Of a DNA stretch of 64,000 nt, positions 19,676-64,000 are shown in pieces; within the stretch, counting starts at the first letter, position 1; every line of letters starts with the position of its first letter. This DNA comes from Xestospongia bergquistia (lineage: Eukaryota > Porifera > Demospongiae > Haplosclerida > Petrosiidae). Position numbers and translations under genes: made by a program. The stretch is from NCBI GenBank assembly GCA_963965975.1, contig OZ014414.1, forward strand, positions 1,959,501 to 2,023,500. The letters are read 5' to 3'. The notes under the pieces are model-generated. The model worked only from the letters and a program-made list of their open reading frames with translations. It searched no databases and was not told the origin of the DNA.

Positions 19676-19898
19676 ATGTTTACTGCTGTGTGTCTCTGCA
19701 TCATATCTCTTATTTATCTGTCAACTAAAGCTGGAGATATTAAAATGTAAGTTATATACTAGCGCTGATATAATACTATAACTCTCTGTTTCTCTGTCTC
19801 TCTGTCTCTCTGTCTCTCTCTCTGTCTCTCCCTCTCTCTCTCTACCTCTCTCTCCCTCTCCCTCGCCTTCCCTCCTCCCTCCCTCCCTCCCTCCCTCC

Positions 19899-19934
<36 letters not shown>

Positions 19935-22900
19935 CTTTTTCTCTCTCTCTCTAGCGACATAGAATTCTCACTAGTTCTCCAATATACACCTAATAATGCC
20001 TATAATTGTTCACCATTGAATGTACCAAATGAAGGTGTTCTCATTAAAGCATTAATTGACAATACTACAGTTATTCCACTTCATTTCTATTATGTAAATG
20101 GAACAGAAGATAATTATAAAATTAAACATATTCCCACAGTGACCTTCATTAGCTCATCACTCCTTAATTTAACATATAATACTACTCCATATAATGCTAA
20201 TACATATGCTAAATATACTACATATACTGTTCCATTTACTGCCTCATCAGCTGCTGGACCATATCTTTATAACATTAACATTAACAATGATCTACTGTTA
20301 AATCAAACAGTACGTTTTGCATGGAATCAGACATACAGAGCACCTCGTGCTAATTGTGATGTGTGGGCATTAGACAACATCAGTATATCTCTACAACAAA
20401 ATGGATGTTATCGACAAATATATCAACAAGATTTTAACAATTGGAAAACTCCTGGTTGGGATCTTATTAACTCAACTATCTCATTTAAATCTAGTCAATG
20501 TGATAGTTCAAGTGGTTGTCTTTATTTTACTGGTGGTCCTGACTATAAAGTAGTAGCAAGTCGTCAAGCAACATCCCCAATGTTAGATCTTCATGTTATT
20601 ACACCTGTTACTCTACCATCTTCACCTACTACTTATAAAGAGAATATGTGTAATAATGATGAAAATATAATGTAAGTAATATCTTTATATATCAAGAAAT
20701 ATAATGTATTTTTTTCTCAGAATTATAAGTTTCTTACTTCAATTAACTCAATTCATTGGACCTGGTCCATGTACTGATACCTCACCTAATGCTATCCTTC
20801 TCTCTCTACATTCTGAAGATACCTCATCACCTTTGGCATACTTTGTACCAATGGGTAACAAATACTGGGCATATTTTAATGGTAGTAGTTTATATAATGT
20901 TCCAATATACTCTCCTAGTAGTACTCAGACTACATTAATTACATCATGTCTTAATTATAATACCAATCAATTTTCATTGAGTTGGATACAAGAGAACTAT
21001 ACTATTAATAAAGATATCTGGAGTCTTAGTGAAGTCAATATAACATTGAAACATTATGAGTTATGTTATAACAATGAGTGAGTAATAATTCTTATATTAT
21101 ATTCTAATTATATCTTTGTAGATCTTGGAGTCTTTATAATGGGAATATATCACAATCATTATCTACTAATAACAGTACATTGTTTTTTCATAATGGAAAT
21201 GGGTCATCACCACGTTGTGCTAATCTATCTCTCTCCTATCATTGTCACATATCATTAAGTTCTGTAGCAACCTCTAGTATTGAACCATCAGTATCAAGTA
21301 TAATAAGTATGACCAGCAATAATATCATAACTACACCATCTCCAAGTCCAATAAATTGTTCTATTGATAGTATATGGCCAGAGACACAACCAGGTTATAA
21401 TGTCACTGGTTCTTACTGTTATAAAGGAACTGTTAATGGTAAATGATAATTCTCCTTACATTATAATCCTCTTCAACAGGTACCAGACTATGTAAACAAG
21501 ATGGAAAGTGGGATGATAAATTTTGTTTTACTAGTAAACTATTTAATAGTATATTATCAAAAGTATAGCACTAATAATATAATTTGTAACATTATCTCTC
21601 ACTCTATTACATACACAGATCAATAGTTCTTCTTTAATAGCTTTGGAAATTTTAAGTGAAAATAATGAAGAGATAACAGTTGATCAAACCATTTTCTTAT
21701 TGTCTGTTATTGTTAATAACCAGTTAAACCAGTCACCAGAACCCATTTCAATTAATTTCACTAAGGTATGTACAATATAATGTAATTAATTACAGTTCAT
21801 GATATTATCATAGTATTTTAATAATGTTATTAATAATATACTGACAAACAAGACCATTCCTAATAATGAGGTTAATTTATAATTGATTACTGGATAATTA
21901 TATTAATACTTACAGGATAAGAGGCGATCAATTGGTAGTCAACTCCTCCTAACATTAGATATATATGCACTATATCTTTATAATACTACAGGACTACAAA
22001 TGATAGGAGATACTACTGGTAGGTACTGTGTAAAATTTATTGGTTGATTTAACTAATATATAATTATACACTTTGCTAATTTGATTACTAATGTAATATT
22101 TAAGTAGCAATATAAACAAGTACATTAGTAATAATAACAGTATTGTGCTTACTTTTTAACAAAAAAAGCTTTTATTTGCAGCTTGTATAACCAAGTAATA
22201 CTTAAATCAACCAATAAATTTATACAGTGTATATATACATAAGTTGCTTACTTCATGTCTCTCTTGTATATATAGCATTTATTGTTAAAGACATTGCAAC
22301 TATAACTGGTCCAATTCAAGCAATATCTCTTAATAATAATTCTATTACATTACCTCCTGATATATTTGATAATCTACCAGTTAAAATAGCTTCATTTTAC
22401 TACCAGAACTTATCAAGATGGTTACCTCCTGATCATACTAACCATTTTATCATATCTCCAGTTCTTTCTTCTACTAATTGTACAGACTGCTCTATAACAG
22501 ATCTGAATACTCTGGTTAATATTGTGTTTAACCTATCTAGTCAACAGGTATAACAAGACATGGTCGCTTGTCATAGCAATTCTTGTTCCTCTACACAGAT
22601 ATCAAGTACTGATAATTTATCTTGTGTATATTGGAAGTTTCAATTGTACATAGTACATGAAAATATATAATGAGTGTATTATATCTCCTATTAGATCTGA
22701 TATAACATTACCAAGTGGTGAGTGGAATACTAATGGGTGTGGTCTTATTAGTCAAGAAGGCTCAACAATAACATGTCAATGTGATCATCTAACACACTTT
22801 GCTATTCTACTTAGTCCAGGAGTACAAGTACATTAGTCTGTCTGTATGTATATATAAATGCCCATTTGATAGGTTAGTGACAAAGATCTCAAGATCCTTC

Positions 22901-24345
22901 AAACTATAGGTGTTATGTTATTACCTATCTCTTTGATATGTATGTTACTGACAATATTGACCTATCTTTGTATGAGGTAATACAAACACACATATATATC
23001 ATTGATGATATATATGTCAATAGATCACTGTGGAATATAAGGAACTATATTCATGTTATGTTATGTAGTAATTTATTGGTAGCACAACTCTTGTTTGTAG
23101 TGGGCATTGAACAAACCAAGTATTGGGTATGTGGTCATGTGACTCTCATGTGATATTATTGGCGTGTATGATTTAAGTTTGTATGTTCAGCAATAGCTGT
23201 AGTACTGCAGTACATGTTTCTAGTGACATTTATGTGGATGTTAATGGAGGGTGTGGTCTTATACGTTGCTTTGATTAGGGTCTTTGTGTCACGCCCTAAA
23301 CAATACATTATACGTTTTACACTACTGAGTTATGGTCTGTTAATTATATTCATTGATATATCAATTATTTTGATAATTATTAGGTATTCCTGGACTATAT
23401 ATGTTGATTATAGTACCCATTGGGTATCTGGTTGGTACTCATGAAATCCACAGCCACTACTTATTTTACAAAAATAAAAAACTGATTGCGTGAGTAGTAA
23501 AGTCATAAAAACTTAATATATTTATCAATGTTTATAGATGTTGGTTAAATTATGAGAGTGGATTTATATGGACATTTATTGCACCAGTTATCCTAATACT
23601 TCTAGTAATTTTAATGAATAGATGGATTGATAATAATGTGATGACACTATTCAGGTCAATATTGGGTTCTTCATCATGTCTATTGTGATAATAAGAAGAC
23701 ATCAAAACCGTCAACGACATAAAGATGAAACTGCTAACATCAAGTATGATGTAATCATTTTGTTAATTATAATATTTCTCACAGACAACTGATAAAATCT
23801 TCTATATCACTTACTATAGTGATGGGTATAGGATGGCTAGCTAATGTTCTTTTTTTCTCAGACAAATTACTTTTTATTGCATATATAATGACAGTCTTTA
23901 TTGCTGGTCAAGGTATTATTATCTTCATACTTTATGTCCCACTCTCTAAATCTGTAAGTCGGACTATCATTACTAATGAGAATAAATATCACACACACAC
24001 ACACATATACACATACAGGTTAGAGAGGCATACTTAAAAATGTGGTATAATAAACAGAGAAAATCTCAAATTTTCAGCAAAAATTCTTTCACTAAAGCAA
24101 CTTCATTGAGGACATCAGTGAGTTCCATAATCTCTTTATCATGATATCTTTTTTTTTTTACAGAATGTTGTTAAAAAGTCTGAAACATCAGTTCCTTCTG
24201 TTAATAACTCTGGACAATATAGTTTAGAAACATTTGATGGTATGTATATGTATAAAATGTAGAGTTGGTAATAGTCTTTTGTTCAGATACTTTGAAGATA
24301 GTAAAGAACACTGAAGAATGTAATGAAACTAAACTGGTCATGTAA
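19676..24345 (+). CDS. Adhesion GPCR with reelin-type repeats, copy A
   Basis: Twenty exons joined at GT-AG borders: 19676-19746, 19955-20671, 20721-21077, 21122-21438, 21480-21562, 21619-21765, 21916-22018, 22276-22547, 22599-22645, 22695-22827, 22873-22976, 23024-23126, 23178-23334, 23384-23489, 23538-23604, 23655-23743, 23785-23953, 24019-24117, 24164-24239, 24287-24345. They sum to 3276 nt, an uninterrupted 1091-aa frame. Order: signal peptide (about 1-20); reelin-like sub-repeats (about 30-440: VRFAWNQ, CDVWALDNISI, DF-x-W, LYFTGG, LSWIQ); Ser/Thr stalk; HRM domain (461-503, W-P and three Cys); GAIN domain; GPS with CVYW, GEWNTNGC and CQCDHLTHF, predicted cleavage Leu737|Thr738; seven TM helices (about 752-1012); tail ending TKLVM. 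A further Met at 19670 is not conserved in other copies, so 19676 is used. Ligand unknown; surface chemosensory or adhesion role inferred. Confidence 0.85.
19783..19954 (+). repeat. CT microsatellite in intron 1 of copy A
   Basis: Pyrimidine-only CTCTCTGT/CCCT run ending in the exon 2 acceptor CTAG at 19954. It forms an extreme polypyrimidine tract. Equivalent runs of different length occur in all other copies. Confidence 0.9.
22026..22229. mobile_element. Mariner-like MITE in intron 7 of copy A
   Basis: A 204-bp insertion with inverted ends of about 27 bp (left end CTGTGTAAAATTTATTGG; right end, inverted, CACTGTATAAATTTATTGG) flanked by TA on both sides (22024-22025, 22230-22231). Copies B, C and D have the empty site at the same intron position. 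TA duplication and the TACAGTG-type end point to the Tc1/mariner group. No coding capacity. Confidence 0.8.
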
Positions 24346-30240: not shown

Positions 30241-30252
30241 ATCACTCTACCC

Positions 30253-30743: not shown

Positions 30744-30751
30744 CTCTACCC

Positions 30752-31286: not shown

Positions 31287-31862
31287 ATGTTTACTGCTGT
31301 GTGTCTCTACATCATATCTCTTAGTTATCTGACAACTAAAGCTGGAGATGTTAAAATGTAAGTTATATACTAGTGCTGAGAGAGGGGTAGGAATGAAGTT
31401 TAAGTTAGGGGGCTGACCTTATATTAATTGCGTTATATTATTAAATACCAAAAATGACCAAAAAATTAATTTGTCTGTTGTTAAAGGAAACAAACTCTTT
31501 AGCTATTTCTAATAAGTTTATGTTATTAGTACAGTCCTTATGTGTATGTAACAGCATGACATGGTTTATTTGTTCTTGGATCATAGTACTTTGTAGGTAA
31601 TTATTTAGTCAGCGTAAGTTTAAAAAAGAGCGTTCCGTTCTATTAATGCTTTTGTTATAGGAATTAATTTTATAGAAGGTAACATGACCACACAATAATG
31701 TGGTGATTGATTGTTAATGTACACAAATTAGCACAATAAGGTTATTGTGTACATAGTCTTGAGTGCAAATCAGGGGGGTTTACACACCCTGATTTGATGT
31801 TGGGGAGGGGGCTTCAACCCCACCCCCCTTTCCTACCCCTAAGAGTGCTAATATAGTACTGT

Positions 31863-31914
<52 letters not shown>

Positions 31915-34900
31915 ATCTATCTTTCTCTCTCTCTCTCTTTCTATCTCTCTCTCTCTCTTTCTATCTATCTATCTCTCTCTCTCTATATATATATATCTTT
32001 AGTAACATAGAATTCTCACTAGTTCTCCAATATACACCTAATAATACCTATAATTGTTCACCATTGAATGTACCAAATGAAGGTGTTCTCATTAAAGCAT
32101 TAATAGACAATACTACAGTTGTTCCACTTCATTTCTATTATGTAAATGGAACAGAAGATAATTATAAAATTAAACATATTCCCACAGTGACCTTCATTAG
32201 CTCATCATTTCTTAATTTAACATATAATGCTACTCCATATAATGCTAATACATATGCTAAATATACCACATATACTGTCCCATTTACTGCCTCATCAGCT
32301 GTTGGACCATATCTTTATAACATTAGCATTGACAATGATCTACTGTTAAATCAAACAGTACGTTTTGCATGGAATCAAACATACATAGCAGCTCGTGCTA
32401 ATTGTGATGTGTGGGCATTAGACAACATCAGTATATCTCTACAACAAAATGGATGTTATCGACAAATATATCAACTGGATTTTAACAGTGGGGAAATTCC
32501 TGATTGGGATCTTATTAACTCAACTATCTCATTTAATTCTAGTCAATGTGATAGTTCAAGTGGTTGTCTTTATTTTACTGGTGGTCCTGACTATAATGTA
32601 GTAGCAAGTCGTCAAGCAACATCCCCAATGTTAGATCTTCATGTTATTACACCTGTTACTCTACCATCTTCACCTACTACTTATAAAGAGAATATATGTA
32701 ATAATGATGACAATATAATGTAAGTAATATCTTTATATATCAATAAGTACAGTATACTTCTTTTTTCTCAGAATTATAAGTTTCTTACTTCAATTAACTC
32801 AATTCATTGGACCTGGTCCATGTAATGATACCTCACCTAATGCTATCCTTCTCTCTCTACATACTGAAGATACCTCATCAGCTTTGGCATATTTTGTACC
32901 AGTGGGTAACAAATACTGGCCTTATTTTAATGGAAGTAGTTTATATAATGTTCCAATATACTCTCCTAGTAGTACTCAGAATACAGTAATTATAACATGT
33001 CTTAATAATAATATCAATCAATTTTCATTGAGTTGGATACAAGAGAACTATACTATTAATAAAGATATCTGGAGTCTTAGTCAAGTCAATATAACATTGG
33101 AACAATACGAGTTATGTTATAAAAATGAGTGAGTAGTAATTCTTTATATTATATTCTAATAATACCTTGTAGATCTTGGAGTCTTTATAATGGGAATATA
33201 TCACAATCATTAAATACTAATAAGAGTACATTGATGTTTGATAATGGAAATGGGTCATCACCACGTAGTGCTAATCATTCTTTCTCCAATCATTGTGACA
33301 TATCTGCACCTGCTGTAACAACCTCTACTATTGAACCCTCAGTATCAACTATAGTCAGTTTGATTAGCACTAATGTTATATTTACCCCATCTCCAAGTCC
33401 TATAAATTGTTTTACTGATGGTATATGGCCAGAGACACAACCTGGTTATAATGTCACTGGGTCATATTGTTATAAAGGAACTGTTAATGGTAAATGATAA
33501 TTTCTCTTTACATTATAATCCTCTTTAACAGGTACCAGACTATGTAAACAAGATGGAAAGTGGGATGATAATATTTATTGTTTTACTAGTAAACAATTTA
33601 ATACTGTATTATCAAAAGTATAGCACTAATGTAATTTATAACATTATCATTCACTCTATTACATACACAGATCAATAGTTCTTCTCTAATAGCTTTGGAA
33701 CTATTAAGTGAAAATAATGAAGAGATAACAGTTGATCAAACCATTTTCTTATTGTCTACTATTATTAATAACCAGTTAAACCAGTCACCAGAACCTGTTT
33801 CAATTAATTTCACTAAGGTATGTACAATATAATGTAATAATTAATGACAATTAATGATATTATCATAGTATTTCAATAATATTATTAATAATGTACTGAC
33901 AAACAAGACCATTCCTGATAATGAGGTTAATTTATAATTGATTACTGGATAATCATATCAATAGTTACAGGATAAGAGGCGATCTATTGGTAGTCAACTA
34001 CTTCTAACGTTAGATATATTTGCACTATATCTTTATAATACTACAGGACTACAAATGATAGGAGATAATATTGGTAGGTATATATCCATAAGTTGGTTAA
34101 TTTATGTCTCTCTTGTATATATAGCATTTATTGTTAAAGAGATTACAACTATAACTGGTCCAATTCAAGCAATATCTCTTAATAATAATTCTATTACATT
34201 ACCTCCTGATATATTTGATAATATATCTGTTAAAATAGCCTCATTTTACTACCAGAACTTATCAAGATGGTTACCAGTTCATCATCCTAACCAATCAGTC
34301 ATATCTCCAGTTCTCTCCTCTGCTAATTGTACAAACTGTTCTATAACAGGTTTGACTAAACCAGTTAACATTGTGTTTAACCTGTCCAGTCAACAGGTAT
34401 AGCAAAATACATTCAGTGGTCATACCAACCATATTTTTTCTCTACACAGATATCAAGTACTGATGATTTATCTTGTGTATATTGGAAGTTTCAATTGTAC
34501 ATAGTACTTGAAAATATATAATGAGTGTATTATATCTCCAATTAGATCTGATATAACATTACCAAGTGGTGAGTGGAACACCAATGGGTGTGGTCTTATT
34601 AGTCGAGAGGGTTTAACAATAAAATGTCAATGTGATCATCTAACACATTTTGCTATTCTACTTAGTCCAGGAGTACAAGTACATTAGTCTGTCTGTCTAT
34701 ATATATACCTGTCTATTTTATAGGTTAGTGACAAAGATCGTAAGATCCTTCAAACTATAGGTGTTATGTTAATACCTATCTCTCTGATATGTATGTTACT
34801 GACAATATTAACCTATGTTTGTATGAGGTATGATACACATGCATATTGCAGATAATTTATATATGTCCATAGATCACTGTGGAATATGAGGAATTATATT

Positions 34901-36209
34901 CATGTTATGTTATGTAGTAATTTATTGATAGCACAACTCTTGTTTGTAGTGGGTATTGAACAAACGGAGTATTGGGTATGTGGTCATGTGACTCTCATGT
35001 GATTATTATTGGTGTATATTATTTAGTTTGTATGTTCAGCAATAGCTGTAGTACTACAGTACATGTATCTAGTGACATTTATGTGGATGTTAATGGAGGG
35101 TGTTGTCTTATATGTTGCTTTGGTTAGAGTCTTTGTGTCACGCCCTAAACAACACATAATGCGTTTTACACTACTGAGTTATGGTTTGTTAATTCTATTC
35201 ATTGACATATAAATTATTATGATAATTATTAGGTATTCCTGGAGTATATATGTTGATTATAGTACCCATTGGGTATCTTGTTGGTACCGATGAAATCCAC
35301 ACCCACTACTTATTTTACAAAAATCAAAAACTGATTGCGTGAGTAATGAAGATGTAATAACTAAATTTATTTATTTTATAGATGTTGGTTAAATTATGAG
35401 AGTGGATTTATATGGACATTTATTGCACCAGTTATACTAATACTTTTAGTAATTTTAATGAATAGATTGATTGATAATAATATGATGACACTTTTTAGGT
35501 CAATATTGGGTTCTTCATCATGTCTATTGTGATAATAGGAAAACATCAAAAACGTCAACAACATAAAGATGAAACTGCTAATATCAAGTATGATGTATTT
35601 ATTTTGTTTTTGGTCATTTTTTCTGCAGACAATTTATAAAAGCTTCTATATCACTTACTATAGTGATGGGTATAGGATGGCTAGCTAATGTTCTTTTTTT
35701 CTCAGACAAATTACTCTTTATTGCATATATAATGACAGTCTTTATTGCTGGTCAAGGTATTATTATCTTCATACTTTATGTCCCTCTCTCTAAACCTGTA
35801 AGTCTGATTATCATTACTAGTGAAGATAAATATCACAAAGACACACATGTACACATATGTAAATACAGGTTAGAGAGGCATACTTAAAATGGTTGTATAA
35901 TAAAGAAAGAAAATCTCAAGTCTTTAGCAAAAATTATTTCACTAACGCAGCTTCATTGAGGACATCAGTAAGTTTCAATAATGTCATTATCATGATATCT
36001 TATTTTTTACAGAATATTGTTAAAAAGTCTGAAAGATCAGTTCCTTCTGTTAATAACTCTGGACAATATACTCTAGGAACAGTTGATGGTATGTATGTAT
36101 ATATGTATAGCTGGTAATGATCTATTGTTTAGTATCAGAAAGTGCAGTAGATACTTTTAAGAAATTAAAGAATGCTGAACAAAGTAACGAAACTAAACTG
36201 GTCATGTAA
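31287..36209 (+). CDS. Adhesion GPCR with reelin-type repeats, copy B
   Basis: Twenty exons: 31287-31357, 32003-32719, 32772-33128, 33173-33489, 33532-33617, 33671-33817, 33971-34073, 34125-34396, 34450-34496, 34546-34678, 34724-34827, 34873-34975, 35027-35183, 35233-35338, 35382-35448, 35499-35587, 35629-35797, 35869-35967, 36013-36088, 36133-36209. Total 3297 nt, one open frame of 1098 aa. Same architecture as copy A: signal peptide, reelin-like repeats, Thr/Ser stalk, HRM (W-P, YCYKG, KQDGKW), GAIN, GPS with CQCDHLTHF (predicted cut Leu738|Thr739), 7TM including a TM5 with APVILILLVNIGFF, tail ending NETKLVM. Exon 20 carries six extra codons relative to A. Intron 1 contains a hAT-like element and a CT microsatellite. 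No inactivating change seen. Confidence 0.85.
31380..31843 (-). mobile_element. hAT-like non-autonomous element, copy 4, in intron 1 of copy B
   Basis: Element of 464 bp, left end GAGAGGGGTAGGAATG, right end TTTCCTACCCCTAAG, flanked by AGTGCTGA (31372-31379) and AGTGCTAA (31844-31851), one mismatch. It sits 22 bp after the exon 1 donor, oriented against the receptor. The transposase-like frame is broken. Confidence 0.85.
31866..32000 (+). repeat. CT microsatellite in intron 1 of copy B
   Basis: CTCT/TATC pyrimidine-rich run up to the exon 2 acceptor at 32002. Confidence 0.9.
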
Positions 36210-37060: not shown

Positions 37061-37074
37061 AAGAGGGCAGTCAA

Positions 37075-38325: not shown

Positions 38326-38427
38326 ATGTTTACCGCTGTGTGTCTCTGTCTTTTGTCTCTTATTTATATGTCAACTAAAGCTGAAGATGCTGAAATGTAA
38401 GTTGTATACTAGTTTCCGGTATTATAG

Positions 38428-38528
38428 TACTCTCTCTCTGTCTCTCTCTCTCACACTGTCTGTCTGTCTGTCTCTCTCTGTCTCTGTCTCTCTGTCTCTC
38501 TCTGTCTCTCTGTCTCTGTCTCTGTCTT

Positions 38529-38589
<61 letters not shown>

Positions 38590-38627
38590 CTTTCTATCTC
38601 TCTCACTCTATATATATATATCTCTAG
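38428..38627 (+). repeat. CT plus CA microsatellite in intron 1 of copy C
   Basis: CTCTGT run followed by a (CA)n tract (38563-38585) and CT/TA before the acceptor at 38627. Confidence 0.9.
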
Positions 38628-39932
38628 TGACATAGAATTCTCACTAGTTCTCCAATATACACCTAACAATACCTATAATTGTTCACCATTGAATGTACCA
38701 AATGAAGGTGTTCTCATTAAAGCATTAATAGACAATACTACAGTTGTTCCACTTCATTTCTATTATGTAAATGGACAGAAGATAATTATAAAATTAAACA
38801 TATTCCCACAGTGACCTTCATTAGCTCATCATTCCTTAATTTAACATATAATGCTACTCCATATAATGCTAATACATATGCTAAATATACTACATATACT
38901 GTCCCATTTACTGCCTCATCAGCTGTTGGACCATATCTTTATAACATTAACATTAACAATGATCAACTGTTAAATCAAACAGTACGTTTTGCATGGAATC
39001 AAACATACAGAGCAGCTCGTGCTAATTGTGATGTGTGGGCGTTAGACAACATCAGTATATCTCTACAACAAAATGGATGTTATCGACAAATATATCAACA
39101 AGATTTCAACAATGGGGAAATTCCTGGTTGGGATCTTATTAACTCAACTATCTCATTTAACTCTAGTCAATGTGATAGTTCAAGTGGTTGTCTTTATTTT
39201 ACTGGTGGTCCTGGCAATTTTAAAGTAGCAAGTCGTCAAGCAACATCCCCAATGTTAGATCTTCATGTTATTACACCTGTTACTCTATCATCTTCACCTA
39301 CTACTTATAAAGAGAATATATGTAATAATGATGAAAATATAATGTAAGTAATATCTTTATATGTCAATAAATATAATGTATTTCTATCATCTCAGAATCA
39401 TCAATTTCTTACTTCAATTAACTCAATTCATTGGACCTGGTCCATGTACTGATACCTCACCTAATGCTATCCTTCTCTCTCTACATACTGAAGATACCTC
39501 ATCACATTTGGCATATTTTGTACCAATGGGTAACAAATACTGGGCATATTTTAATGGTAGTAGTTTATATAATGTTCCAATATACTCTCCTAGTAGTACT
39601 CAGAATACATTAATTACAACATGTCTTAATAATAATATCAATCAATTCTCATTGAGTTGGATACAAGAGAACTATACTATTAATAAAGATATCTGGAGTC
39701 TTAGTCAAGTCAATATAACATTGGAACAATATGAGTTATGTTATAAAAATGAGTGAGTAGTAATTCTTTATATTATATTCTAATAATACCTTATAGATCT
39801 TGGAATCTTTATAACGGGAATATATCACAATCATTATCTACTAATAACAGTACGTTGATGTTTGATAATGGAAATGGGTCATCACCACGTAGTGCTAATC
39901 TTTCTTTCTCCTATCATTGTGACATATCATCA

Positions 39933-40112
39933 CCTGCTGTAACAACCTCTAGTATTGAACGCTCAGCATCAACTACACCTGCTGTAACAACCTCTAGTAT
40001 TGAACGCTCAGCATCAACTACACCTGCTGTAACAACCTCTAGTATTGAACGCTCAGCATCAACTACACCTGCTGTAACGACCTCTAGTATTGAACCCTCA
40101 GTATCAAGTATA
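39933..40112 (+). repeat. 45-bp coding minisatellite, 4 units, in the stalk of copy C
   Basis: Units start at 39933, 39978, 40023 and 40068. Each encodes PAVTTSSIE(R/P)SAST-type 15-residue repeats rich in Ser/Thr. The first three units are virtually identical. Paralogues A, B and F have one unit; D has a different partial duplication. Confidence 0.92.
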
Positions 40113-43073: not shown

Positions 43074-43094
43074 GTATTGGTTTAAGTATAAGAT

Positions 43095-43391: not shown

Positions 43392-43412
43392 TATTTGGCG
43401 ACGAGGGTCTCA

Positions 43413-45500: not shown

Positions 45501-45533
45501 TAACTCAATTAGTTCAATTTAAAAAGGGAGGAA

Positions 45534-45820
45534 TGTAATTGTATATTACTTAGCACTTACTTATTGTGTATAATTGTATCTTTTGTTATGTTTGATTTAC
45601 TGTGTATTTGTTAATAGGTGCTTACTATGTTTCTTTTGTTATAGGTGACAATGTTAGTTGTGTTAATACTCTTTCTTTTATGCTATGTGTTACTTTTTAG
45701 TTACACCTTTCTTGTTGAGTTTTCTATATAAACTTGCTTGATGTTGTTATTGAATATAGAGAGATAGAAAGATTTATTTCTAAATCATACTTTGTGAATT
45801 CAGTGGTTTAAGTTACCACA
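45534..45820 (+). repeat. 3' LTR
   Basis: 287 bp, TG...CA, identical by eye to 43105-43391, indicating very recent insertion. Confidence 0.93.
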
Positions 45821-46027: not shown

Positions 46028-46284
46028 ATGTTTACCGCTGTGTGTCTCTGTCTCTTGTCTCTTATTTATATGTCAACTAAAGCTGGAGATGTTGAAATGT
46101 AAGTTGTATACTAGTTTTTGGTATTATAGTACTCTCTCTGTGTCTCTCTCTTTGTCTCTCTGTCTCTCTGTCTCTCTCTCATACTGTCTGTCTCTCTCTG
46201 TCTCTATCTCTGTCTCTCTCTGTGTCTTTCTCTGTCTCTCTCTCTCTCTTTCTCTCACACACACTCACTCTCTTTCTATCTCTC

Positions 46285-46337
<53 letters not shown>

Positions 46338-49300
46338 CTTTAGTGACATGGAATTCTCACTAGTTCTCCAATATACACCTAATAATACCTATAATTGTTC
46401 ACCATTGAATGTACCAAATGAAGGTGTTCTCATTAAAGCATTAATAGACAATACTACAGTTGTTCCACTTCATTTCTATTATGTAAATGGAAAAGAAGAA
46501 AATTATAAAATTAAACATATTCCCACAGTGTCCTTCATTAGCTCATCATTCCTTAATTTAACATATAATACTACTCCATATAATGCTAATACATATGCTA
46601 AATATACTACATATACTGTTCCATTTACTGCCTCATCAGCTGTTGGACCATATCTTTATAACATTACCATTAACAATGATCAACTGTTAAATCAAACAGT
46701 ACGTTTTGCATGGAATCAAACATACATAGCAGCTCGTGCTAATTGTGATGTGTGGGCATTAGACAACATCAGTATATCTCTACAACACAATGGATGTTAT
46801 CGTCAAATATATCAACAAGATTTCAACAATGGGGAAATTCCTGGTTGGGATCTTATTAACTCAACTATCTCATTTAACTCTAGTCAATGTGATAGTTCAA
46901 GTGGTTGTCTTTATTTTACTGGTGGTCCTGACTATAAAGTAGTAGCAAGTCGTCAAGCAACATCCCCAATGTTAGATCTTCATGTTATTACACCTGTTAC
47001 TTTATCATCTTCACCTACTACTTATAAAGAGAATATATGTAATAATGATGAAAATATAATGTAAGTAATATCTTTATATATCAATAAATAAAATGTATTT
47101 CTATCTTCTCAGAATCATCAATTTCTTTCTTCAATTAACTCAATTCATTGGACCTGGTCCATGTACTGATACCTCACCTAATGCTATCCTTCTCTCTCTA
47201 CATTCTGAAGATACCTCATCACATTTGGCATATTTTGTACCAATGGGTAACAAATACTGGCCATATTTTAATGGTAGTAGTTTATATAATGTTCCAATAT
47301 ACTCTCCTAGTAGTACTCGGACTACATTAATTACATCATGTCTTAAGAATAATATCAATCAATTCTCATTGAGTTGGGTACAAGAGAACTATACTATCAA
47401 TAAAGATATCTGGAGTCTTAGTCAAGTCAATATAACATTGGAACAGTATGAGTTATGTTATAAAAATGAGTGAGTAGTAACTGTTTATATTATATTCTAA
47501 TTATTATCTTTGTAGATCTTGGAGTCTTTATAATGGGAATATATCACAATCATTATCTACTAATAACAGTACTTTGATGTTTGATAATGAAAATGGGTCA
47601 TTACCACGTAGTGCTAATCTTTCTCTCTCCTATCATTGTGACATATCATCATCTGCTGTAGCAACCTCTACTATTGAACCGTCAGTATCAAGTATAACCA
47701 GTATGACCAGTACTGATGTTATATCTACACCATCTCCAAGTTCTATGAGTTGTTGTTATGCAACAACGTCTAATATTGAACCCTCAGTATCAATTGTAAT
47801 CAATATGATTAGCACTAATGTTATATTTATCCCATCTCCAAGTCCTATAAATTGTTCTACTAATGGTATATGGCCAGAGACACAACCAGGTTATAACGTC
47901 ACTGGGTCATATTGTTATGAAGGAACTGTTAATGGTAAATGATAGATTCTCCTTACATTATAATCCTCTTCAACAGGTACCAGACTATGTAAACAAGATG
48001 GAAAGTGGGATGATAATTTTTGTTGTTTTCCTAGTGAGCAATTTTGTACTGTATTATCAAAGGTATAGCACTAATATTATTTGTTATTTCATCTCTCACT
48101 CTATTACATACACAGATCAATAGTTCTTCTCTAATGGCTTTGGAAATATTAAGTGAAAATAATGAAGATATAACAGTCGATCAAACCATTTTCTTATTGT
48201 CTACTATTGTTAATAACCAGCTAAACCAGTCACCAGAACCTGTTTCAATTAATTTCACTAAGGTATGTACAATATAATGTAATTAATTACAGTTCATGAT
48301 ATTATTATAGTATTTTAATGATATTATTAATAATTTACTGACAAACAAGAACATTCCATATAATGAGGTTAATTTATAATTTAATACTGGATAATTATAT
48401 TAATAATTACAGGATAAGAGGCGATCTATTGGTAGTCAACTCCTTCTAACATTAGATAAATTTACACTATATCTCTATAAAGCAACAGGACTACAGATGA
48501 TAGGAGATAATATTGGTAGGGATACAAAAATAAGTTGTTTATTTTTTGTCTCTCTTGTATATGTAGCATTTATTGTTAAAGATATTACAACTATAACTGG
48601 TCCAATTCAAGCAATATCTGTTAATAATAATTCTATTACATTACCTCCTGATATATTTGATAATCTACCAGTTAAAATAGCTTCATTTTACTACCATAAC
48701 ATATCAAGATGGTTACCTCCTGATCATCCTAACCAATCTATCATATCTCCAGTTCTCTCCTCTACTAATTGTACAGATTGCTCTATAACAGATCTGACTA
48801 CACCAGTTAACATTGTGTTTAACCTGTCTAGTCAACAGGTATGAAAATACATGGTTTGAAGTCATAGCAACAATATCTCTTCTTAATCTACACAGATATC
48901 AAGTACTGATAATTTATCTTGTGTATATTGGAAGTTTGAATTGTACATAGTATTCTAAAATATATAATGAGTGTATTATATCTCCAATTAGATCTGATAC
49001 AACATTACCAAGTGGTGAGTGGAACACCAATGGGTGTGGTCTCATTAGTCAAGAGGGTTTAACAATAAAGTGTCAATGTGATCATCTTACACACTTTGCT
49101 ATTCTGCTAAGTCCAGGAGTACAAGTATATTAGTCTGTCTGTCTATATATATAACTGTCCATATTATAGCTTAGTGACAAAGATCTTAAGATCCTTCAAA
49201 CTATAGGTGCTGTGTTAATACCTATCTCTCTGATATGTATGTTACTAACAATATTAACCTATCTTTGTATGAGGTAATACACACACATATCACTGATGAT

Positions 49301-50297
49301 ATATATATATATATATATATGTCTATAGATCACTGTGGAATATGAGGAGCTATATTCATGTTATGTTATGTAGTAATTTATTGATAGCACAACTCTTGTT
49401 TGTAGTGGGTATTGAACAAACGGAGTATTGGGTAAGTGGTCATGTGACTCTCATGTGATTATTATTGGTGTATATGATTTAGTTTATATGTTCAGCAATA
49501 GCTGTAGTACTGCAGTACATGTTTCTAGTGACATTTATGTGGATGTTAATGGAGGGTGTGGTCTTATACGTTGCTTTGGTTAGGGTCTTTGTCAAACATC
49601 CTAATCAGTACTTGATGTGTTTTACACTACTAAGTTATGGTCTGTTAATTATATTCTTTGATATATCAATTATTTTGATAATTATTAGGTATTCCTGGAG
49701 TATATATGTTGATTATAGTACCCATTGGATATCTTGTTGGTACTGATGAAAACCACACCCAGTACTTGTTATACGAAAATAAGGAACTTGTTGCGTGAGT
49801 AATAAAGTCATAATAACTAAATGATGATGTTTATTTATTTTATAGATGTTGGTTAAGTTATGAGAGTGGATTTATATGGACATTTATTGCACCAGTTATC
49901 CTAATACTTTTAGTAATTTTAATGGGTAGATAGATTGATGATAACATAATGACATCTTTCAGGTCAATATTGGGTTCTTCATCATGTCTATTGTGATAAT
50001 AAGAAAACATCAAAAACATCAACTACATAAAGATGAAACTGCTAATATCAAGTATGGGGTATTTATTTTTTTATTTATCATTTTTCCCACAGACAACTGA
50101 TAAAATCTTCTATATCACTTACTATAGTGATGGGTATAGGATGGCTAGCTAATGTTCTTTTCTTTACTGACAAATTACTCTTTATTGCATACATAATGAC
50201 AGTCTTTATTGCTGGTCAAGGTATTATTATCTTCATACTTTATGTCCCTCTCTCTAAACATGTAAGTCTGGTAATCATTACTAGTAGGTATAAATGT

Positions 50298-50362
<65 letters not shown>

Positions 50363-50711
50363 GCGCGCATGTTTGTATATATATACACAGGTAAGAGAGG
50401 CATACTTAAAATGGTGGTATAATGAAAGGATAAAATCTCAATTTTTCAGCAAAACATATTTGACTAAATCAACTTCTTACGAGAAATCTGTGAGTTGCAA
50501 TAATGTCATTATCATGATATGTTAATTTCTTGATGTTAAACAGTCTGAAAGATCAGTTCCTACTGTCAATAAGTCTGGACAATATACTCTAGGAACATTT
50601 GACGGTATGTTTGTATAATTATGTAGAGCAGGTACCAGTATTGTCTATTGCTCTGTATTAGAGAGTACATCAGACAGTTTGAAGAAATCTGAAGTAATGA
50701 AACTGAGGTAG
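46028..50711 (+). CDS. Adhesion GPCR with reelin-type repeats, copy D
   Basis: Exons: 46028-46098, 46344-47060, 47113-47469, 47516-47934, 47977-48062, 48116-48262, 48413-48515, 48567-48838, 48896-48942, 48992-49124, 49170-49273, 49329-49431, 49483-49639, 49689-49794, 49846-49912, 49963-50051, 50093-50261, 50391-50489, 50544-50604, 50662-50711. Total 3357 nt, open for 1118 aa. Domain order as in copy A; the stalk (exon 4) is 34 codons longer through an internal duplication with an added CC pair; predicted GPS cut Leu772|Thr773. The usual acceptors of exons 19 and 20 are mutated. In-frame replacement acceptors (AAACAG, TATTAG) restore a frame, but the tail then ends KLR and loses the TKLVM terminus. 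A nested transposon lies about 50 bp upstream of the ATG. Functional status therefore depends on those two acceptors. Confidence 0.78.
46129..46343 (+). repeat. CT microsatellite in intron 1 of copy D
   Basis: The longest of the intron 1 runs (about 210 bp), CTCTGT/CTCT with short CA and TA parts, up to the exon 2 acceptor at 46343. Confidence 0.9.
50299..50368 (+). repeat. (CA)n/(CG)n microsatellite in intron 17 of copy D
   Basis: About 60 bp of CA followed by a GCGCGCGC run. Shorter CA tracts occupy the same intron in A (23993), E and the 56.2-kb fragment. Confidence 0.9.
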
Positions 50712-52650: not shown

Positions 52651-52663
52651 GTGAGCTAGTCTT

Positions 52664-54546
52664 GTTTATTGCTGTGTGTCTCTGTGTCATTTTTCTTCTT
52701 TATAAACTAAAGCTGGAGATGTTAAGATGTAAGTTGTATACTAGTGATGATATACTACTATAACTCTCTCTCTCTCTCTCTAGTAACATAGAATTCTCAC
52801 TAGTTCTCCAGTATACACCTAACAATACCTATAATTGTTCACCATTGAATGTACCAAATGAAGGTGTTCTCATTAAAGCATTAATAGACAATACTACAGT
52901 TGTTCCACTTCATTTCTATTGTGTAAATAGAACAGAAGATAATTATAAGACAAAGCATATTTCCACAGTGTCCTTCATTAACTCATCATTCCTTAATTTA
53001 ACATATAATACCGTACTACTGCATATAATGCTACTACATATGCTAAATATACTACATATACTGTCCCATTTACTGCCTCATACAACATTACCAAGTGGTG
53101 AGTGGAATGCCAATGGGTGTGGTCTCATTAGTCAAGAGGGTTTAACAATAAAATGTCAATGTGATCATCTAACACACTTTGCTATTCTACTAAGTCCAGG
53201 AACACAAGTATATTAGTCTGTCTGTCTATATATATAACTGTCCATATTATAGGTTAGTGACAAAGATCTTAAGATCCTTCAAACTATAGGTGCTGTGTAT
53301 CTCTCTGATGTGTATGTTACTAGCAATATTGACCTATCTTTGTATGAGGTAAGTCACACACACACATATCACTGATGATATATATATATATATATATACA
53401 TCTATAGATCACTGTGGAATATGAGGAACTATATTCATGTTATGTTATGTAGTAATTTATTGATAGCACAACTCTTGTTTGTAGTGGGTATTGAACAAAC
53501 GGAGTATTTGGTATGTGGTCATGTGACTCTCATGTGATTATTATTGGTGTATATGATTTAGTTTATATGTTCAGCAATAGCTGTAGTACTGCAGTACATG
53601 TTTCTAGTGACATTTATGTGGATGTTAATGGAGGGTGTGGTCTTATATGTTGCTTTGGTTAGAGTCTTTGTCAAACATCCTAATCAGAACTTGATGTGTT
53701 TTACACTACTGAGTTATGGTCTGTTAATTATATTCATTGATATATCAATTATTATTATAATTATTAGGTATTCCTGGAGTATATATGTTGTTTATAGTAC
53801 CCATTGGGTATCTTGTTGGTACTGATGAAAACTCCACCCAGTACTTGTTATACGAAAATAAGGAGCTTGTTGTGTGAGTAATAAAGTCATAATAACTAAA
53901 TGATGATGTTTATTTATTTTATAGATGTTGGTTAAATTATGAGAGTGGATTTATATGGACATTTATTGCACCAGTTATTCTAATACTTCTAGTAATTTTA
54001 ATAGATAGATGGATTGATGATAACATAATGACATCTTTCAGGTCAATATTGGGTTCTTCATCATGTCTATTGTGATAATAAGAAAACATCAAAAACATCA
54101 ACTACATAAAGATGAAACTGCTAATATCAAGTATGATGTATTTATTTTTTTATTTATCATTTTTCCCACAGACAACTGATAAAATCTTCTATATCACTTA
54201 CTATAGTGATGGGTATAGGATGGCTAGCTAATGTTCTTTTCTTTACTGACAAATTACTCTTTATTGCATATATAATGACAGTCTTTATTGCTGGTCAAGG
54301 TATTATTATCTTCATACTTTATGTCCCTCTCTCTAAACATGTAAGTCTGATTATTATTACTAGTGGATATAAATGTCACGCACACACGTATTTACACATA
54401 AATACATATGTCATACACATACACACATATCTCTATGTGTATGAATACATACACAGGTAAGAGAGGCATACTTAAAATGGTGGTATAATGAAAGGACAAA
54501 ATCTCAATTTTTCAGCAAAACATATTTGACTAAATCAATTTCTTTT
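52664..54546 (+). pseudogene. Adhesion GPCR pseudogene, copy E
   Basis: The exon 1 start codon is TTG (52664) where paralogues have ATG, and deletions shift the signal-peptide frame. Exon 2 begins at 52784 but joins directly to exon 10 within about 53083 (CTGCCTCAT fused to ACAACATTACCAAG), removing the rest of the reelin-like region, stalk, HRM and most of GAIN. Exon 11 lacks about 8 bp (53296). Exons 12-18 are well preserved (53408-53510, 53562-53718, 53768-53873 and onward), closely matching copy D. The 3' end breaks in exon 18 near 54546 and runs into an exon 8/9 boundary of another copy. Confidence 0.85.
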
Positions 54547-56204
54547 AAAATAGTCTACAACAGGTATAAGAGTACATGCTCAGTTGTCATAGTAACCATA
54601 TCTCTTCTTTCTCTAAACAGATATCAATTACTGATACTTTATCTTGTGTACATTGGAAGTTTGAATTGTACATAGTAAACTTAGTAATATGTGACCTGAT
54701 ATGCAAAAAAGACACCAATTTTGGCAAACATTTCAGATGTGATTTATAAAACATTTCAAAACCAGTTTTGTATACATACAGATTATATGCATTTACAACA
54801 GTTCATGCATGGTAACTGCATATATGTATGCATATCTGTTTCTTGAGGTGTTTAACAATGATCCTTTGTCATAAATTATATCATGATTGTTTTGACAGAA
54901 GTAGTCCCTTATTGTACATCAGGTTAAATATATATTTATATTATATCTCCTGTTAGATCTGATATAACATTACCAAGTGGTGAGTGGAACACTAATGGGT
55001 GTGGTCTTGTTAGTCAAGAGGGTTCAACAGTAACTTGTCAATGTGATCATTTAACACACTTTGCTATTCTACTTAGTCCAGGAGTACCAGTACATTAGTC
55101 AATTTGTCTACATATAAAAATACCAATTTTATAGGTTAGTGACAAAGATCAAAAGATCCTTCAAATTATAGGTGTTGTATTAATACCCACCTCTCTGATA
55201 TGACAATATTTACCTATCTTTTTATGAAGTAAGATTCACAAACACATATATTGCTGATGACATAAATGTATATAGATCATTGTGGAATATGAGGAACTTC
55301 ATTCATGTTATGTTATGTAGTAATTTATTTATAGCACAACTCTTGTTTGTAGTGGGTATTGAACAAACCAAGTTATGGTCTGTTAATTATATTCATTGAT
55401 ATATCAATTATTATGACTATTGTTATTAGGTATTCCTGGAGTATATATGTTGATTATAGTACCCATTGGATATCTTGTTGGTACTGATAAAAACCACACC
55501 AACTAGTTATATGAAAATGAAGAACTGGTTGCGTGAGTATAAAAGTCATAATTACAAAATAATAATATTAATTTCATTAATTTTATAGATGATGGTTAAA
55601 TTATGAGAGTGGATTTATATGGACATTTATTGCACCAGTTATCCTAATACTATGTTAATGTTTAAATGAATTAATGATAACATAATGACATCTGTCAGGT
55701 AAATATTGGATTATTCATCAAATCTATTATGATAGTGAGAAGACATCAAAAACGCCAACTACATAAACATGAAACTGCTAATGTCAAGTATGATGTAATT
55801 ATTTTTGTAAATGTTATTGTCATTTTTTTTGCAGACAATTTATAAAGGCTTCTATATCACTTACTATAGTGATGGGTATAGGATGGCTAGCTAATGTTCT
55901 TTTTTCTCAATCAAATTACTCTTTATTGCATATATAATGACAGTCTTTATTTCTGGTCAAGGTCTTATTATCTTCATACTTTATGTCCCTCTCTCTAAAC
56001 CTGTAAGTCCGATTGTCACTACTAGTGAAGATAAATATCACACAGACACACATGTACATATATGTGAATACAGGTTAGAGAGGCATACTTAAAATGGTTG
56101 TATAATAAAAAAAGAAAATCTCAAGCCTTTAGCAAAAATTATTACACTAACGCAGCTTCATTAAGGACATCAAGTCTGAGTATCACTATTATTGAAAATA
56201 AATG

Positions 56205-56239
<35 letters not shown>

Positions 56240-60347: not shown

Positions 60348-60470
60348 ATGTTTACTACTGTGTGCCTCTGTCTCTTGTCTCTTATTTATCTGTCAACTAA
60401 AGCTGGAGATGTTGAAATGTACGTTATATACTAGTACTGATAACTAACTCTCTGTCTGTCTCTGTCTCTG

Positions 60471-60536
<66 letters not shown>

Positions 60537-63500
60537 TCTCTCTCTAGTGACATAGAATTCTCAGTAGCTCTCCAGTATACACCTAACAATACCTATAATT
60601 GTTCACCATTGAATGTACCAAATGAAGGTGTTCTCATTAAAGCATTAATTGACAATACTACAGTTGTTCCACTTCATTTCTATTATGTAAATGGAACAGA
60701 AGATAATTACTGTAAGAAACATATTCCCACAGTGTCCTTTATTAACTCATCATTCCTTAATTTAACATATAATACTACTGCATATAATACTAATACATAT
60801 GCTAAATATACTACATATACTGTCCCATTTACTAACTCATCAGCTGTTGGACCATATCTTTATAACATTACCATTGACAATGATCTACTGTTAAATCAAA
60901 CATTACGTTTTGCATGGAATCAGACATACAAAGCAAAAGGGGCTAATTGTGATGTGTGGGCGTTAGACAACATCAGTATATCTCTACAACACAATGGATG
61001 TTATCGACAAATATATCAACAAGATTTCAATAATAAGGAAAATCCTGGATGGGATCTTATTAACTCAACTATCTCATTTAACTCTAGTCAATGTGATAGT
61101 TCAAGTGGTTGTCTTTATTTTACTGGTGGTCCCGACTACAGAGGAGTAGCAAGTCGTCAAGCAACATCCCCGATGTTAGATCTTCAAGTTATTACACCTG
61201 TTACTATACCATCTTCACCTACTACTTATAAAGAGTATATATGCGATACTGATGAAAATATAATGTTAGTAATATCTTCATATATCAATAAATAGAATGT
61301 ATTTCTTTCTTCTCAGAATTATAAGTTTCTTACTTCAATTAAGTCAATTCATCGGACCTGGTCCATGTAACGATATCTCACCTAATACTATCCTTCTCTC
61401 TCTACATACTGAAGATATCTCATCACCTTTGGCATTTTTTGTACAAATGGGCAACAAATACTGGCCTTACTTTGATGGTAGTAGTTTATATAATGTTCCA
61501 ATATACTTTCCTAGTAGTACTCAGAATACATTAATTACAACATGTCTTAATAATAATATCAGTCAATTCTCATTGAGTTGGATACAAGAGAACTATACTA
61601 TTAATAAAGATATCTGGAGTCTTAGTCAAGTCAATATAACATTGAAACAATATGAGTTATGTTATAAAAATGAGTGAGTAGTAATTCTTTATATTATATT
61701 CTAATAATACCTTGTAGATCTTGGAGTCTTTATAATGAGAATATATCACAATCATTTTATACTAATAGCAGTACTTTGATGTTTTATGATGGAAATGGGA
61801 CATTACCACGTAGTGCTAATCTTTCTTTCTCCTATCATTGTGACATATCATCACCTGCTGTACCAACATCTACTATTGAACCCTCAGTAACAAGTATAAC
61901 CAGTATGACCAGCACTGATCTTATATCTACACCATTTCCAAGACCTATTAGTTGTTCTGCTGATGGTATATGGCCAGTGACACAACCAGGTCATAATATC
62001 ACTGGTTTTTACTGTTATAAAGGAACTGTTAATGGTAAATGATAACTTCTCCTTACATTATAATCCTCTTAAAAAGGTACGAGACTATGTAAACAAGATG
62101 GAAAATGGGATGATAATATTTATTGTTTTACTAGTAAACAATTTAATACTGTATTATCAAAGGTAGCACTAATATAATTTGTAACATTATCTTTCACTCT
62201 ATTATATACACAGATCAATAGTTCTTCTGTAATGGCTTTGGAAATTTTAAGTGAAAATAATGAAGAGATAGCAGTTGATCAAACCATTTTCTTATTGTCT
62301 ACTATTGTTAATTATCAATTAAACCAGTCACCAGAACCTGTTTCAATTAATTTCACTAAGGTATGTATAATAAAATGTAATGAATTACAATTTATAATAT
62401 TATTATAGTATTTTAATAATGTTATTAATGATATACTGACAAACAAGACCATTCCTAATAATGAGGTTAATTTATAATTGATTACTGGATAATTACATTA
62501 ATAACTACAGGATAAGAGGCGATCTATTGGTAGTCAACTCCTCCTAACATTAGATATATTTGCACTATATCTTTATAATACTACAGGACTACAAATGATA
62601 GGAGATAATATTGGTAGGTATATATAAATTAGTTGGTTACTTTATGTCTCTCTTGTATATATATATAAAAAATTGTGACCTGATTTTCAAAAAGGGTCCA
62701 CTTCTGTCAAATCATTTCTGACCTTATTTGTGACAAAACCCACTTTTAAAACATATGAGGAAACAGAACATACATATAGAATAGTTATGCATACATAGAA
62801 AGCTGTTGTTTTTTTTTAACAGTGATCTTTTCACAAATCAAATCACATATATATGCACATATATTAATCGTATACTTTGTCTCTTTTGTATATATAGCAT
62901 TTATTGTTAAAGATATTACAACTATAACTGGTCCAATTCAAGCAATATCTCTTAATAATAATTCTATTACATTACCTCCTGATATATTTGATAATCTACC
63001 AGTTAAAATTGCATCATTTTATTACCAAAACTTATCAAGATGGTTACCTCCTGATCATCCTAACAAATCAATCATATCTCCAATTCTCTCCTCTACTAAT
63101 TGTACAGACTGCTCTATAACAGATCTGACTACACCTGTTAATATTGTGTTTAACTTGTCTAAACAACAGGTATAGCAAAACATACTTAATAATTGTCATA
63201 GCAATGTTATGTCTCTCCCTCTACACAGATATCAAGTACTGATAATTTATCTTGTGTATATTGGACATTTAAATTGTACATAGTATACTAAATATATAAT
63301 GAGTTTATTATATCTCCTATTAGATCTGATATAACATTACCAAGTGGTGAGTGGAATACTAATGGGTGTGGTCTTATTGGTCAAGAACGTTCAACAGTGA
63401 CATGTCAATGTGATCATTTAACTCACTTTGCTATTCTACTTAGTCCAGGATTACAAGTACATTAGTCTGTCTGTATATCTGTATATATAACTGTCGATTT

Positions 63501-64000
63501 TATAGGTTAGTGACAAAGATCATAAGATCCTTCAAACTATAGGTGTTGTGTTATTACCTATCTCTCTGATATATATGTTACTGACGATATTGATCTATCT
63601 TTGTATGAGGTAAGTCACACACACATATATATCACTGATAATGTATATGTCTATAGATCACTGTGGAATATGAGCAACTATATTCATGTTATGTTATGTA
63701 GTAATTTATTTATAGCACAACTCTTGTTTGTTGTGGGTATTGAACAAACCAAGTATTGGGTATGTGGTCATGTGACTCTCATGTGATTATTATTGGTGTG
63801 TATTATTTAGTTTGTATGTTCAACAATAGCTGTAGTATTGCAGTACATGTTTCTAGTGACATTTATGTGGATGTTAATGGAGGGTGTGGTCTTATACTTT
63901 GCTCTGGTTAGAGTCTTTGTCACACATCCTAAGCAATACATAATGAGTTTTACACTACTGAGTTATGGTCTGTTAAGTATTTCATTGAGATATTAATTAT
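60348..64000 (+). CDS. Adhesion GPCR with reelin-type repeats, copy F (cut by window end)
   Basis: Exons 1-13 seen: 60348-60418, 60548-61264, 61317-61673, 61718-62034, 62077-62162, 62214-62360, 62511-62613, 62898-63169, 63229-63275, 63324-63456, 63506-63609, 63657-63759, 63811-63967; the remainder lies beyond the window. The frame is open throughout. Signal peptide, reelin-like repeats, stalk, HRM (W-P, YCYKG, KQDGKW), GAIN, GPS with CQCDHLTHF, and TM1-3 are present. Splice sites show mild drift (donor GTACGT after exon 1, GTTAGT after exon 2, acceptor AAAAAG before exon 5), which could reduce splicing but keep GT-AG. Intron 7 contains a MITE-like insertion. Confidence 0.8.
60448..60547 (+). 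repeat. CT microsatellite in intron 1 of copy F
   Basis: CTGTCT units followed by pure CT up to the exon 2 acceptor at 60547. The equivalent tract in copy E (52763-52783) is only about 20 bp. Confidence 0.9.
62655..62845. mobile_element. MITE-like insertion in intron 7 of copy F
   Basis: About 200 bp extra relative to copies B and D, beginning ATTGTGACCTGATTTTCAAAAA and ending near CACAAATCAAATCAC (imperfectly inverted). Related at its left end to the insertion at 54672. Confidence 0.5.

Follow-up and report, generated by a model that had tools for sequence, protein, structure and literature searches.

The window analysed here, 64,000 nucleotides of the sponge Xestospongia bergquistia (C4:1959501-2023500 of a genome assembly of 146 Mb in 21 contigs), carries on its plus strand, from position 19676 onwards, a tandem array of related multi-exon adhesion G protein-coupled receptor (GPCR) genes, copies A to E and a decayed copy F. 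We think that these genes probably form a diversified family of recognition receptors on an adhesion GPCR core, in which one shared signalling half would stand behind many recognition surfaces, a function that we infer from sequence. Their predicted products begin with a short segment encoded by exon 1, followed by a pair of related units whose borders are those of exons, a segment resembling HRM, the GAIN/GPS region with an intact HL/T site and the 7tm_2 domain, and they end in a short tail. The variation is concentrated in exon 2, the presumed membrane-distal unit, which differs more between copies than the remainder of the gene does. What is new here are the 27 full exon-2 copies on three contigs, the sister receptors with other ectodomains, and exon 2 as the variable part.

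The receptor half of the predicted proteins is clearly recognizable. We hand-built a gene model of copy B from reading frames and splice sites and used it as the reference; its 21 exons (31287-36209) form a single frame of 1117 amino acids (aa) with one terminal stop and without a splice or frame flag in any exon. In Pfam, copy B matched 7tm_2 with an expectation value (E) of 1.4e-41 (142.9 bits, cut-off 20.6) and GPS with E 2.9e-12, above the cut-off; its GPS sequence is CQCDHLTHFAILLSP, and the HLT cleavage site was found at the GPS in 14 of 14 automatically assembled proteins. When the GAIN-seven-transmembrane (7TM) part was compared with solved structures, 78 distinct sequences matched at E <= 0.001, and among the matches listed (60 of the 78) the best solved relative was latrophilin 3/ADGRL3 (8jmt, E 9.8e-51). 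No separate Pfam GAIN match was obtained for copy B at E <= 10; ectodomain-only chains of adhesion GPCRs matched it over stretches that include the GPS (ADGRG6 6v55, E 4.7e-9, query 135-259; ADGRB2 8oek, E 1.6e-8). Thus GPS, 7TM and, by way of these chains, GAIN were borne out downstream of the ectodomain, as the sequence-only reading had proposed. The HRM domain that it had also placed there was the top Pfam match of both pieces tried but stayed below the threshold (E 0.024, 15.5 bits with a cut-off of 26.2, and E 0.028). The N-terminal exon resembles a signal peptide by eye and fell short of a 19-residue hydropathy threshold. Taken together, the genes are predicted to encode adhesion GPCRs.

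The exons of copy B were carried to the other copies by DNA alignment. In copies A and D, exons 1-18 are open, with AG/GT at each junction and no flag, so that the earlier statement of three copies fully in frame holds for exons 1-18 of A, B and D but not for the last exons of A and D, which could not be placed cleanly by transfer from copy B (the last exon of A is unplaced and the last exons of D are uncertain). Copy E is unflagged in exons 1-14 up to the end of the window, and exons 10-18 of its continuation are unflagged in locus L045. Copy C is broken, with frame flags in exons 2 and 13, a lost exon-7 acceptor and exons 14-18 unplaced. The tandem array itself is confirmed, copies A-E being real, and the ectodomain motifs quoted in the earlier reading are present in the copies. 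At the DNA level, four copies of one repeat family (D13) are 92-95% identical to the reference across 300 bases, which is above chance. The features of the array are as follows.

8517..8878 (+): diverged exon-2 fragment, upstream of the array
19676..24239 (+): copy A, by exon transfer; exons 1-18 free of stops and of splice or frame flags
19676-19746 (+): copy A exon 1, by exon transfer
19955-20671 (+): copy A exon 2
20721-21077 (+): copy A exon 3
21122-21438 (+): copy A exon 4
21480-21562 (+): copy A exon 5
within 21619-22827 (+): copy A GAIN/GPS exons 6-11
within 22873-23953 (+): copy A 7TM exons 12-18
to 24239 (+): copy A tail exons
31287..36209 (+): copy B, complete 21-exon gene, 1117 aa, GPS and 7tm_2 above cut-off
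32003..32719 (+): copy B exon 2 (variable exon, phase 2-2), encoding unit 1 and the reelin-like block within it, from phase, PF21471 match and variation
32307..32438 (+): copy B reelin-like block, residues 102-145 of the exon-2 translation (...TVRFAWNQ...VWALDNISIS...), from profile comparisons
32772..33128 (+): copy B exon 3 (phase 2-2), likely repeating the first half of exon 2 in diverged form (LSWIQ...IWSLSQVNI), from a profile comparison (p 1.6e-4) that loses significance once the block is removed
33173..33617 (+): copy B exons 4-5, with an S-W-S-L-Y-N-G stretch, a linker rich in Ser and Thr, and the HRM-like segment (E 0.024, sub-threshold)
33671..34678 (+): copy B exons 6-11, encoding the GAIN region and the HL/T-bearing GPS (CQCDHLTHFAILLSP), from the GPS match (E 2.9e-12) and solved adhesion GPCR GAIN regions
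34724..35797 (+): copy B exons 12-18, seven-transmembrane domain (7tm_2, E 1.4e-41; ADGRL3, E 9.8e-51)
38326..41736 (+): copy C, broken (exon 2 lacks one base, exon 7 has lost its acceptor and exon 13 carries a frame flag), by exon transfer
46028..50489 (+): copy D, open across exons 1-18 at canonical splice sites, exon 19 reaching 50489, by exon transfer
52704..56172 (+): copy F, decayed remnants; an exon-2 start runs into GPS-exon sequence in frame at 52764-53216
60348..64000 (+): copy E, by exon transfer; the window holds exons 1-14 and L045 the continuation

The family extends well beyond the window. Exon 2 has 44 matches in the genome (50 candidates scored), and in 27 of them the alignment spans 222 or more of the 224 query residues with no stop (18 on C4, 7 on C15 and 2 on C2). 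Twelve of the 40 loci examined are clean over exons 1-18, and five further loci (L020, L028, L029, L031 and L033) fail solely at the length-variable exon 4 or exon 18. Three loci (L026, L027 and L034) hold an exon-1-like stretch, exons 2-3 and part of exon 4, with no receptor half within the stretch examined; in L026 and L027 the exon-1-like stretch is flagged or lacks an ATG. A fusion of these three to fibrinogen was considered and dropped, the fibrinogen-like frames being, by eye, neighbours with their own start; such frames adjoin the partial receptor copies L034 and L035. Conversely, seven loci (L036-L042) hold most receptor-half exons without exons 2-3. A related exon 1 could be aligned in L039-L042, with a donor flag in two of them, and L040 and L041 have flags in exons 17-18. 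The ectodomains of these sister receptors include a one-unit type with W-S-I-N-N-V (L036 and L038) and a third type with W-S-V-S-N-[IV] or similar (L039-L042). In L036, on C15, an HRM-like stretch, GIWPETLPGHNVTGFYCYKGTVNGK, forms a tandem run of four ahead of the GAIN exons, in which three frames are identical. Genome-wide, at least 150 GPS matches were found at E <= 0.01 (150 of 166 candidates scored), 24 of them within C4:1982214-2201492. Many more clustered GPS and 7tm_2 matches lie on C1, C2, C3, C5, C7, C8 and C10, probably representing other adhesion GPCR arrays.

The excess of variation in exon 2 was seen both across the family and between recent duplicates. The mean pairwise ratio of nonsynonymous to synonymous substitution rates (dN/dS), calculated without copies C, F, L015 and L035, was 0.85 in exon 2, 0.42 in exon 3 and 0.47 in exons 5-11 (26 copies each), and 0.30 in exons 12-18 (22 copies). 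Third-position diversity was similar in all four gene parts (0.083-0.105 among 12 C4 copies), indicating that the exon-2 excess consists of amino-acid changes. The recent duplicates come from a segmental duplication: the window stretches compared between 2519 and 51759, leaving out 25.2-30.7 kb, have a second copy about 75.8 kb downstream (C4 about 2037881-2087000), with identity of 99.1-99.8% in five blocks of 6.4 to 10 kb, 95.8-97.7% on the left side and 95.9% at copy E. A DNA search with positions 1-16000 of the window scored 38 of 706 candidates, its own place not being listed, and was not used to bound the duplication. Such high identity across blocks of this length would also be expected if the assembly had erroneously placed two haplotypes in tandem, in which case the exon-2 differences would be allelic and not between paralogues; we regard this as unlikely, and the drop in identity on the left side and at copy E, which a simple haplotig does not need, argues against it.

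In the four duplicated gene pairs (A, B, C and D; 5 kb each aligned), 40 differences were counted across the 2868 bases of exon 2 and 25 across the other 17099, so that 14% of the bases held 40 of the 65 differences (odds ratio 9.7; Fisher's test gave p 2e-18, a value overstated because changes within one converted tract are not independent). The share of exon 2 was 2 of 8 in pair A, 24 of 30 in B, 5 of 15 in C and 9 of 12 in D, so that B and D carry the effect; outside exon 2, copy B and its counterpart L014 are distinguished by 6 sites. In pairs A, B and D no difference was found in exons 3 and 5-11, and both states of a difference were present in other copies for 28 of the 35 exon-2 differences, as opposed to 1 of 5 in exons 12-18. 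A two-site variant, IAA/RAP, is swapped in opposite directions in pairs A and B. When the pairwise distances among 12 copies were compared between gene parts, five of the six comparisons showed no correlation (rho -0.13 to 0.09; exon 2 versus exons 5-11, rho 0.44), as reassortment predicts. This pattern of exon-2 differences is what gene conversion among the copies would leave.

We then consider what the variable unit resembles. Exons 2 and 3 of copy B encode 238 and 118 aa, respectively, and both are of phase 2-2. The sole Pfam match of copy-B exon 2 at E <= 5 was Reelin_subrepeat-B (PF21471; E 0.012, 15.8 bits with a gathering threshold of 27), and exons 3 and 4 had no Pfam match at E <= 5. 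All 24 exon-2 copies scanned (the 28 exon-2 rows minus copy C, whose frame is broken, and minus L013, L015 and L016, which are near-duplicates) matched PF21471 at E <= 1, the best with E 4.2e-4, and six other Pfam families were each matched by one of the 24. When PF21471 was searched against the whole genome (12 candidates scored), all 11 matches at E <= 10 fell within this gene family, none above the cut-off (best 20.5 bits, cut-off 27). A profile of the 24 copies gave two matches among PDB sequences at E <= 10, both to reelin (E 0.035 and 0.069), and phmmer with the copy-B ectodomain against PDB gave a single chance match (E 1.5). Aligned by hhalign with nine reelin sub-repeats, the exon-2 unit scored E 4e-5 (probability 70, 34 columns); the same program gave probability 15.8 for exon 3 versus the exon-2 unit and 2.4 for the start of exon 4 versus the end of exon 2.

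An in-house profile test (1000 column shuffles, Gumbel-fitted p, 29 comparisons in total, significance limit 0.05/29) located the likeness more closely. The exon-2 unit matched reelin with p 2.4e-6, a score reached in 0 of 1000 shuffles, and the match was confined to QTVRFAWNQ...VWALDNISIS, the remainder of the unit giving p 0.013. Five of the 29 comparisons fell under the limit, the others being sister type 3 versus the exon-2 unit (p 8.9e-5), exon 3 versus the exon-2 unit (p 1.6e-4), sister type 2 versus type 3 (p 1.9e-4) and sister type 2 versus reelin (p 4.4e-4). The likeness of exon 3 to exon 2 rests on the same block, since p rose to 0.26 once the block was removed. Not significant after correction were exon 3 versus reelin (p 0.053), the second unit versus reelin (p 0.072; 0.41 without its block), sister type 3 versus reelin (p 0.028), sister type 2 versus the exon-2 unit and exon 3 (p 0.067 and 0.45), and the start of exon 4 versus the end of exon 2 (p 0.029, with 0.028 for a control pair).

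The ectodomain thus contains one block that resembles the C-terminal end of reelin sub-repeats, and the earlier description of it as built from reelin sub-repeats is too strong. An Asp-box and an EGF module between sub-repeats A and B are part of the reelin repeat as described in the accessible text of PMC4882317. The Asp-box/BNR motif [ST]x[DN]xGxxW was found in 0 of 14 ectodomains, and no EGF match at E <= 5 in copy-B exons 2, 3 and 4, each scanned singly. Because these are not found, the first half showed no reelin likeness in the profile test and the ectodomain, apart from one reelin-like block, is unassigned, we do not class the product as a reelin-repeat protein. What stands of the proposed reelin-type ectodomain is the RFxWxQ and WALDNxxI block of exon 2, upheld in the profile search, but not the D-F/W/C/LYFTGG part, the Asp-box or EGF, nor a reelin match for exon 3.

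Two other identities were weighed for the ectodomain. It could be a circularly permuted reelin sub-repeat, with the second half first, repeated twice and with exon borders at the permutation point. The motif order is, by eye, suggestive of this, the start of exon 4 aligns in register with the end of exon 2 (p 0.03), exons 2 and 3 are both phase 2-2, and one-unit sister receptors exist (L036/L038); we hold it to be improbable, as the control pair, for which no match was expected, also gave p 0.028, and the first half compared with reelin gave p 0.56 (0.74 for the sister type). The other identity, a jelly-roll domain such as MAM with no likeness to reelin, also seems to us improbable. MAM and reelin do share an A-[IL]-D-[DN]-[IV] strand (p 0.015 between both profiles), but compared with MAM the exon-2 unit gave p 0.066, exon 3 0.15 and sister type 2 0.68, and no Pfam MAM match was found at E <= 1 in the 24 exon-2 members scanned. 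Of the other folds that had been suggested, MAM is not supported, and exon 2 is more like reelin than like MAM.

Several results weigh against reading the array as a recognition family with a reelin-like distal unit. Beyond the block, the likeness fails: the end of exon 2 ("DF, W, C, LYFTGG") compared with the first half of reelin (DFE, W, CG, LYFxG) gave p 0.56, exon 3 versus reelin had an hhalign probability of 1.4, and six sister ectodomain pieces searched in Pfam gave no reelin, just weak unrelated matches. A reelin repeat would be expected to form an 11-strand jelly roll with bound calcium; structure prediction by AlphaFold2 was unusable, with a predicted local distance difference test score (pLDDT) of 33 for exon 2 (24 copies) and 45 for the one-unit sister domain (17 rows), the alignments being shallow because all rows came from one genome; Foldseek with the low-quality sister-domain model (pLDDT 45) gave 164 matches at E <= 10, none at E <= 0.001. 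As for the variation, the pairs A/L013 and C/L015 have just 2 of 8 and 5 of 15 differences in exon 2, and 7 of the 35 exon-2 differences carry a state found in no other copy. The mean exon-2 dN/dS is below 1, so that constraint there may simply be relaxed.

The main rival to the recognition reading is indeed drift in a weakly constrained outer domain, that is, an ordinary birth-and-death expansion of adhesion GPCRs, in which exon 2 drifts, conversion is unselected and no special recognition role exists. The many other adhesion GPCR-like clusters in the same genome (at least 150 GPS matches at E <= 0.01), the exon-2 dN/dS below 1 and the decay of several copies are all in line with it. Relaxed constraint alone, however, would neither give exon 2 a density of differences nearly ten times that of its surroundings in recent duplicates nor favour states already present in other copies, and we consider this explanation less probable, though it deserves serious attention.

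Recognition of variable partners is favoured here because the receptor half is conserved with other ectodomains and the variation is focused on exon 2. Cleavage in the GAIN domain and activation by a tethered agonist are established features of adhesion GPCRs, and the receptor half is therefore expected to work like that of others. The receptor would be cut at the GPS and its halves held together by non-covalent contacts; the distal unit, probably a beta domain whose end resembles a reelin sub-repeat, would bind a variable partner (another cell, the matrix or a microbe), and a pull or release would expose the tethered agonist THFAILL and activate the 7TM domain. Duplication and gene conversion would shuttle exon-2 versions among the copies, while the signalling half stays conserved. 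A bolder version, in which gene conversion re-deals one exon onto the conserved HRM-GAIN-7TM half and yields an individual-specific repertoire for self/non-self or microbe recognition, is a tentative proposal that we rate as rather unlikely. Adhesion GPCR ectodomains are known as diverse; here one conserved GAIN-7TM module seems to stand behind several ectodomain types in one genome. The symmetric phase 2-2 exons and the excess of variation in one exon make exon-wise diversification of adhesion GPCRs testable by population sequencing, and the array offers candidate recognition receptors in an early-branching animal.

Other elements lie beside the array. Three frames on the minus strand (578-1339, 3324-4016 and 13736-14497) have a hydrophobic N-terminal stretch by eye and match Pfam CBM96 above the cut-off. 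DNA similar to that of the first two is also present at C4:1956373, 2194399, 2203463, 2205703 and 2211795, hence at both ends of the receptor array, and these frames could encode candidate secreted partners. At 43105-45820 lies a long terminal repeat (LTR)-type element, with 287-base ends (43105-43391 and 45534-45820) that are 99.7-100% identical to their counterparts in the duplicate. One of its frames matches models for gag-like proteins, aspartyl protease and integrase, whereas none of the three pieces searched matched a reverse transcriptase at E <= 0.01.

Full-text literature searches, whose scope largely left out subscription papers and preprints, gave no paper titled on reelin-repeat GPCRs or on reelin in Amphimedon, and "adhesion GPCR", "reelin" and "sponge" together gave just Schwann-cell work; "reelin" was not found in the accessible text of the review PMC13197933. 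Reelin repeats (3a7q, 2e26 and 2ddu; available text of PMC4882317) have in common with the array the RFxWxQ...WAxDNVxI block at the end of a sub-repeat; the array differs from them in lacking an Asp-box, an EGF spacer and a detectable first half, and in that the block sits in a membrane receptor. In the sponge Amphimedon queenslandica, 40 Adhesion receptors are described, 28 with GPS and at least eight with HRM, mostly in a sponge-specific cluster; reelin is absent from the domains in the Figure 4 legend, and "reelin" and "tandem" from the main text (PMC4302439, legend and main text). Choanoflagellate and filasterean adhesion GPCRs share with the array the HRM-GAIN-7TM module, which in the array has an HRM-like segment, and bear diverse further ectodomains, "reelin" being absent from the main text of PMC12716839. 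The octopus expansion of adhesion GPCRs is likewise lineage-specific and co-localised, with positive selection reported and leucine-rich repeats among the extra domains; exon-wise conversion was not found in the available text passages (PMC6408891).

The closest resemblance is in the receptor half. ADGRL3 (8jmt/7wy5), ADGRG2 and ADGRG6 are like the predicted sponge receptors in the GAIN/GPS region with HL/T, in 7tm_2 and in an HRM-like segment before GAIN. Latrophilin-type and other adhesion GPCRs bear other distal domains. Unlike the latrophilin-type receptors, the sponge genes make up a tandem family with at least 27 exon-2 copies and one variable exon.

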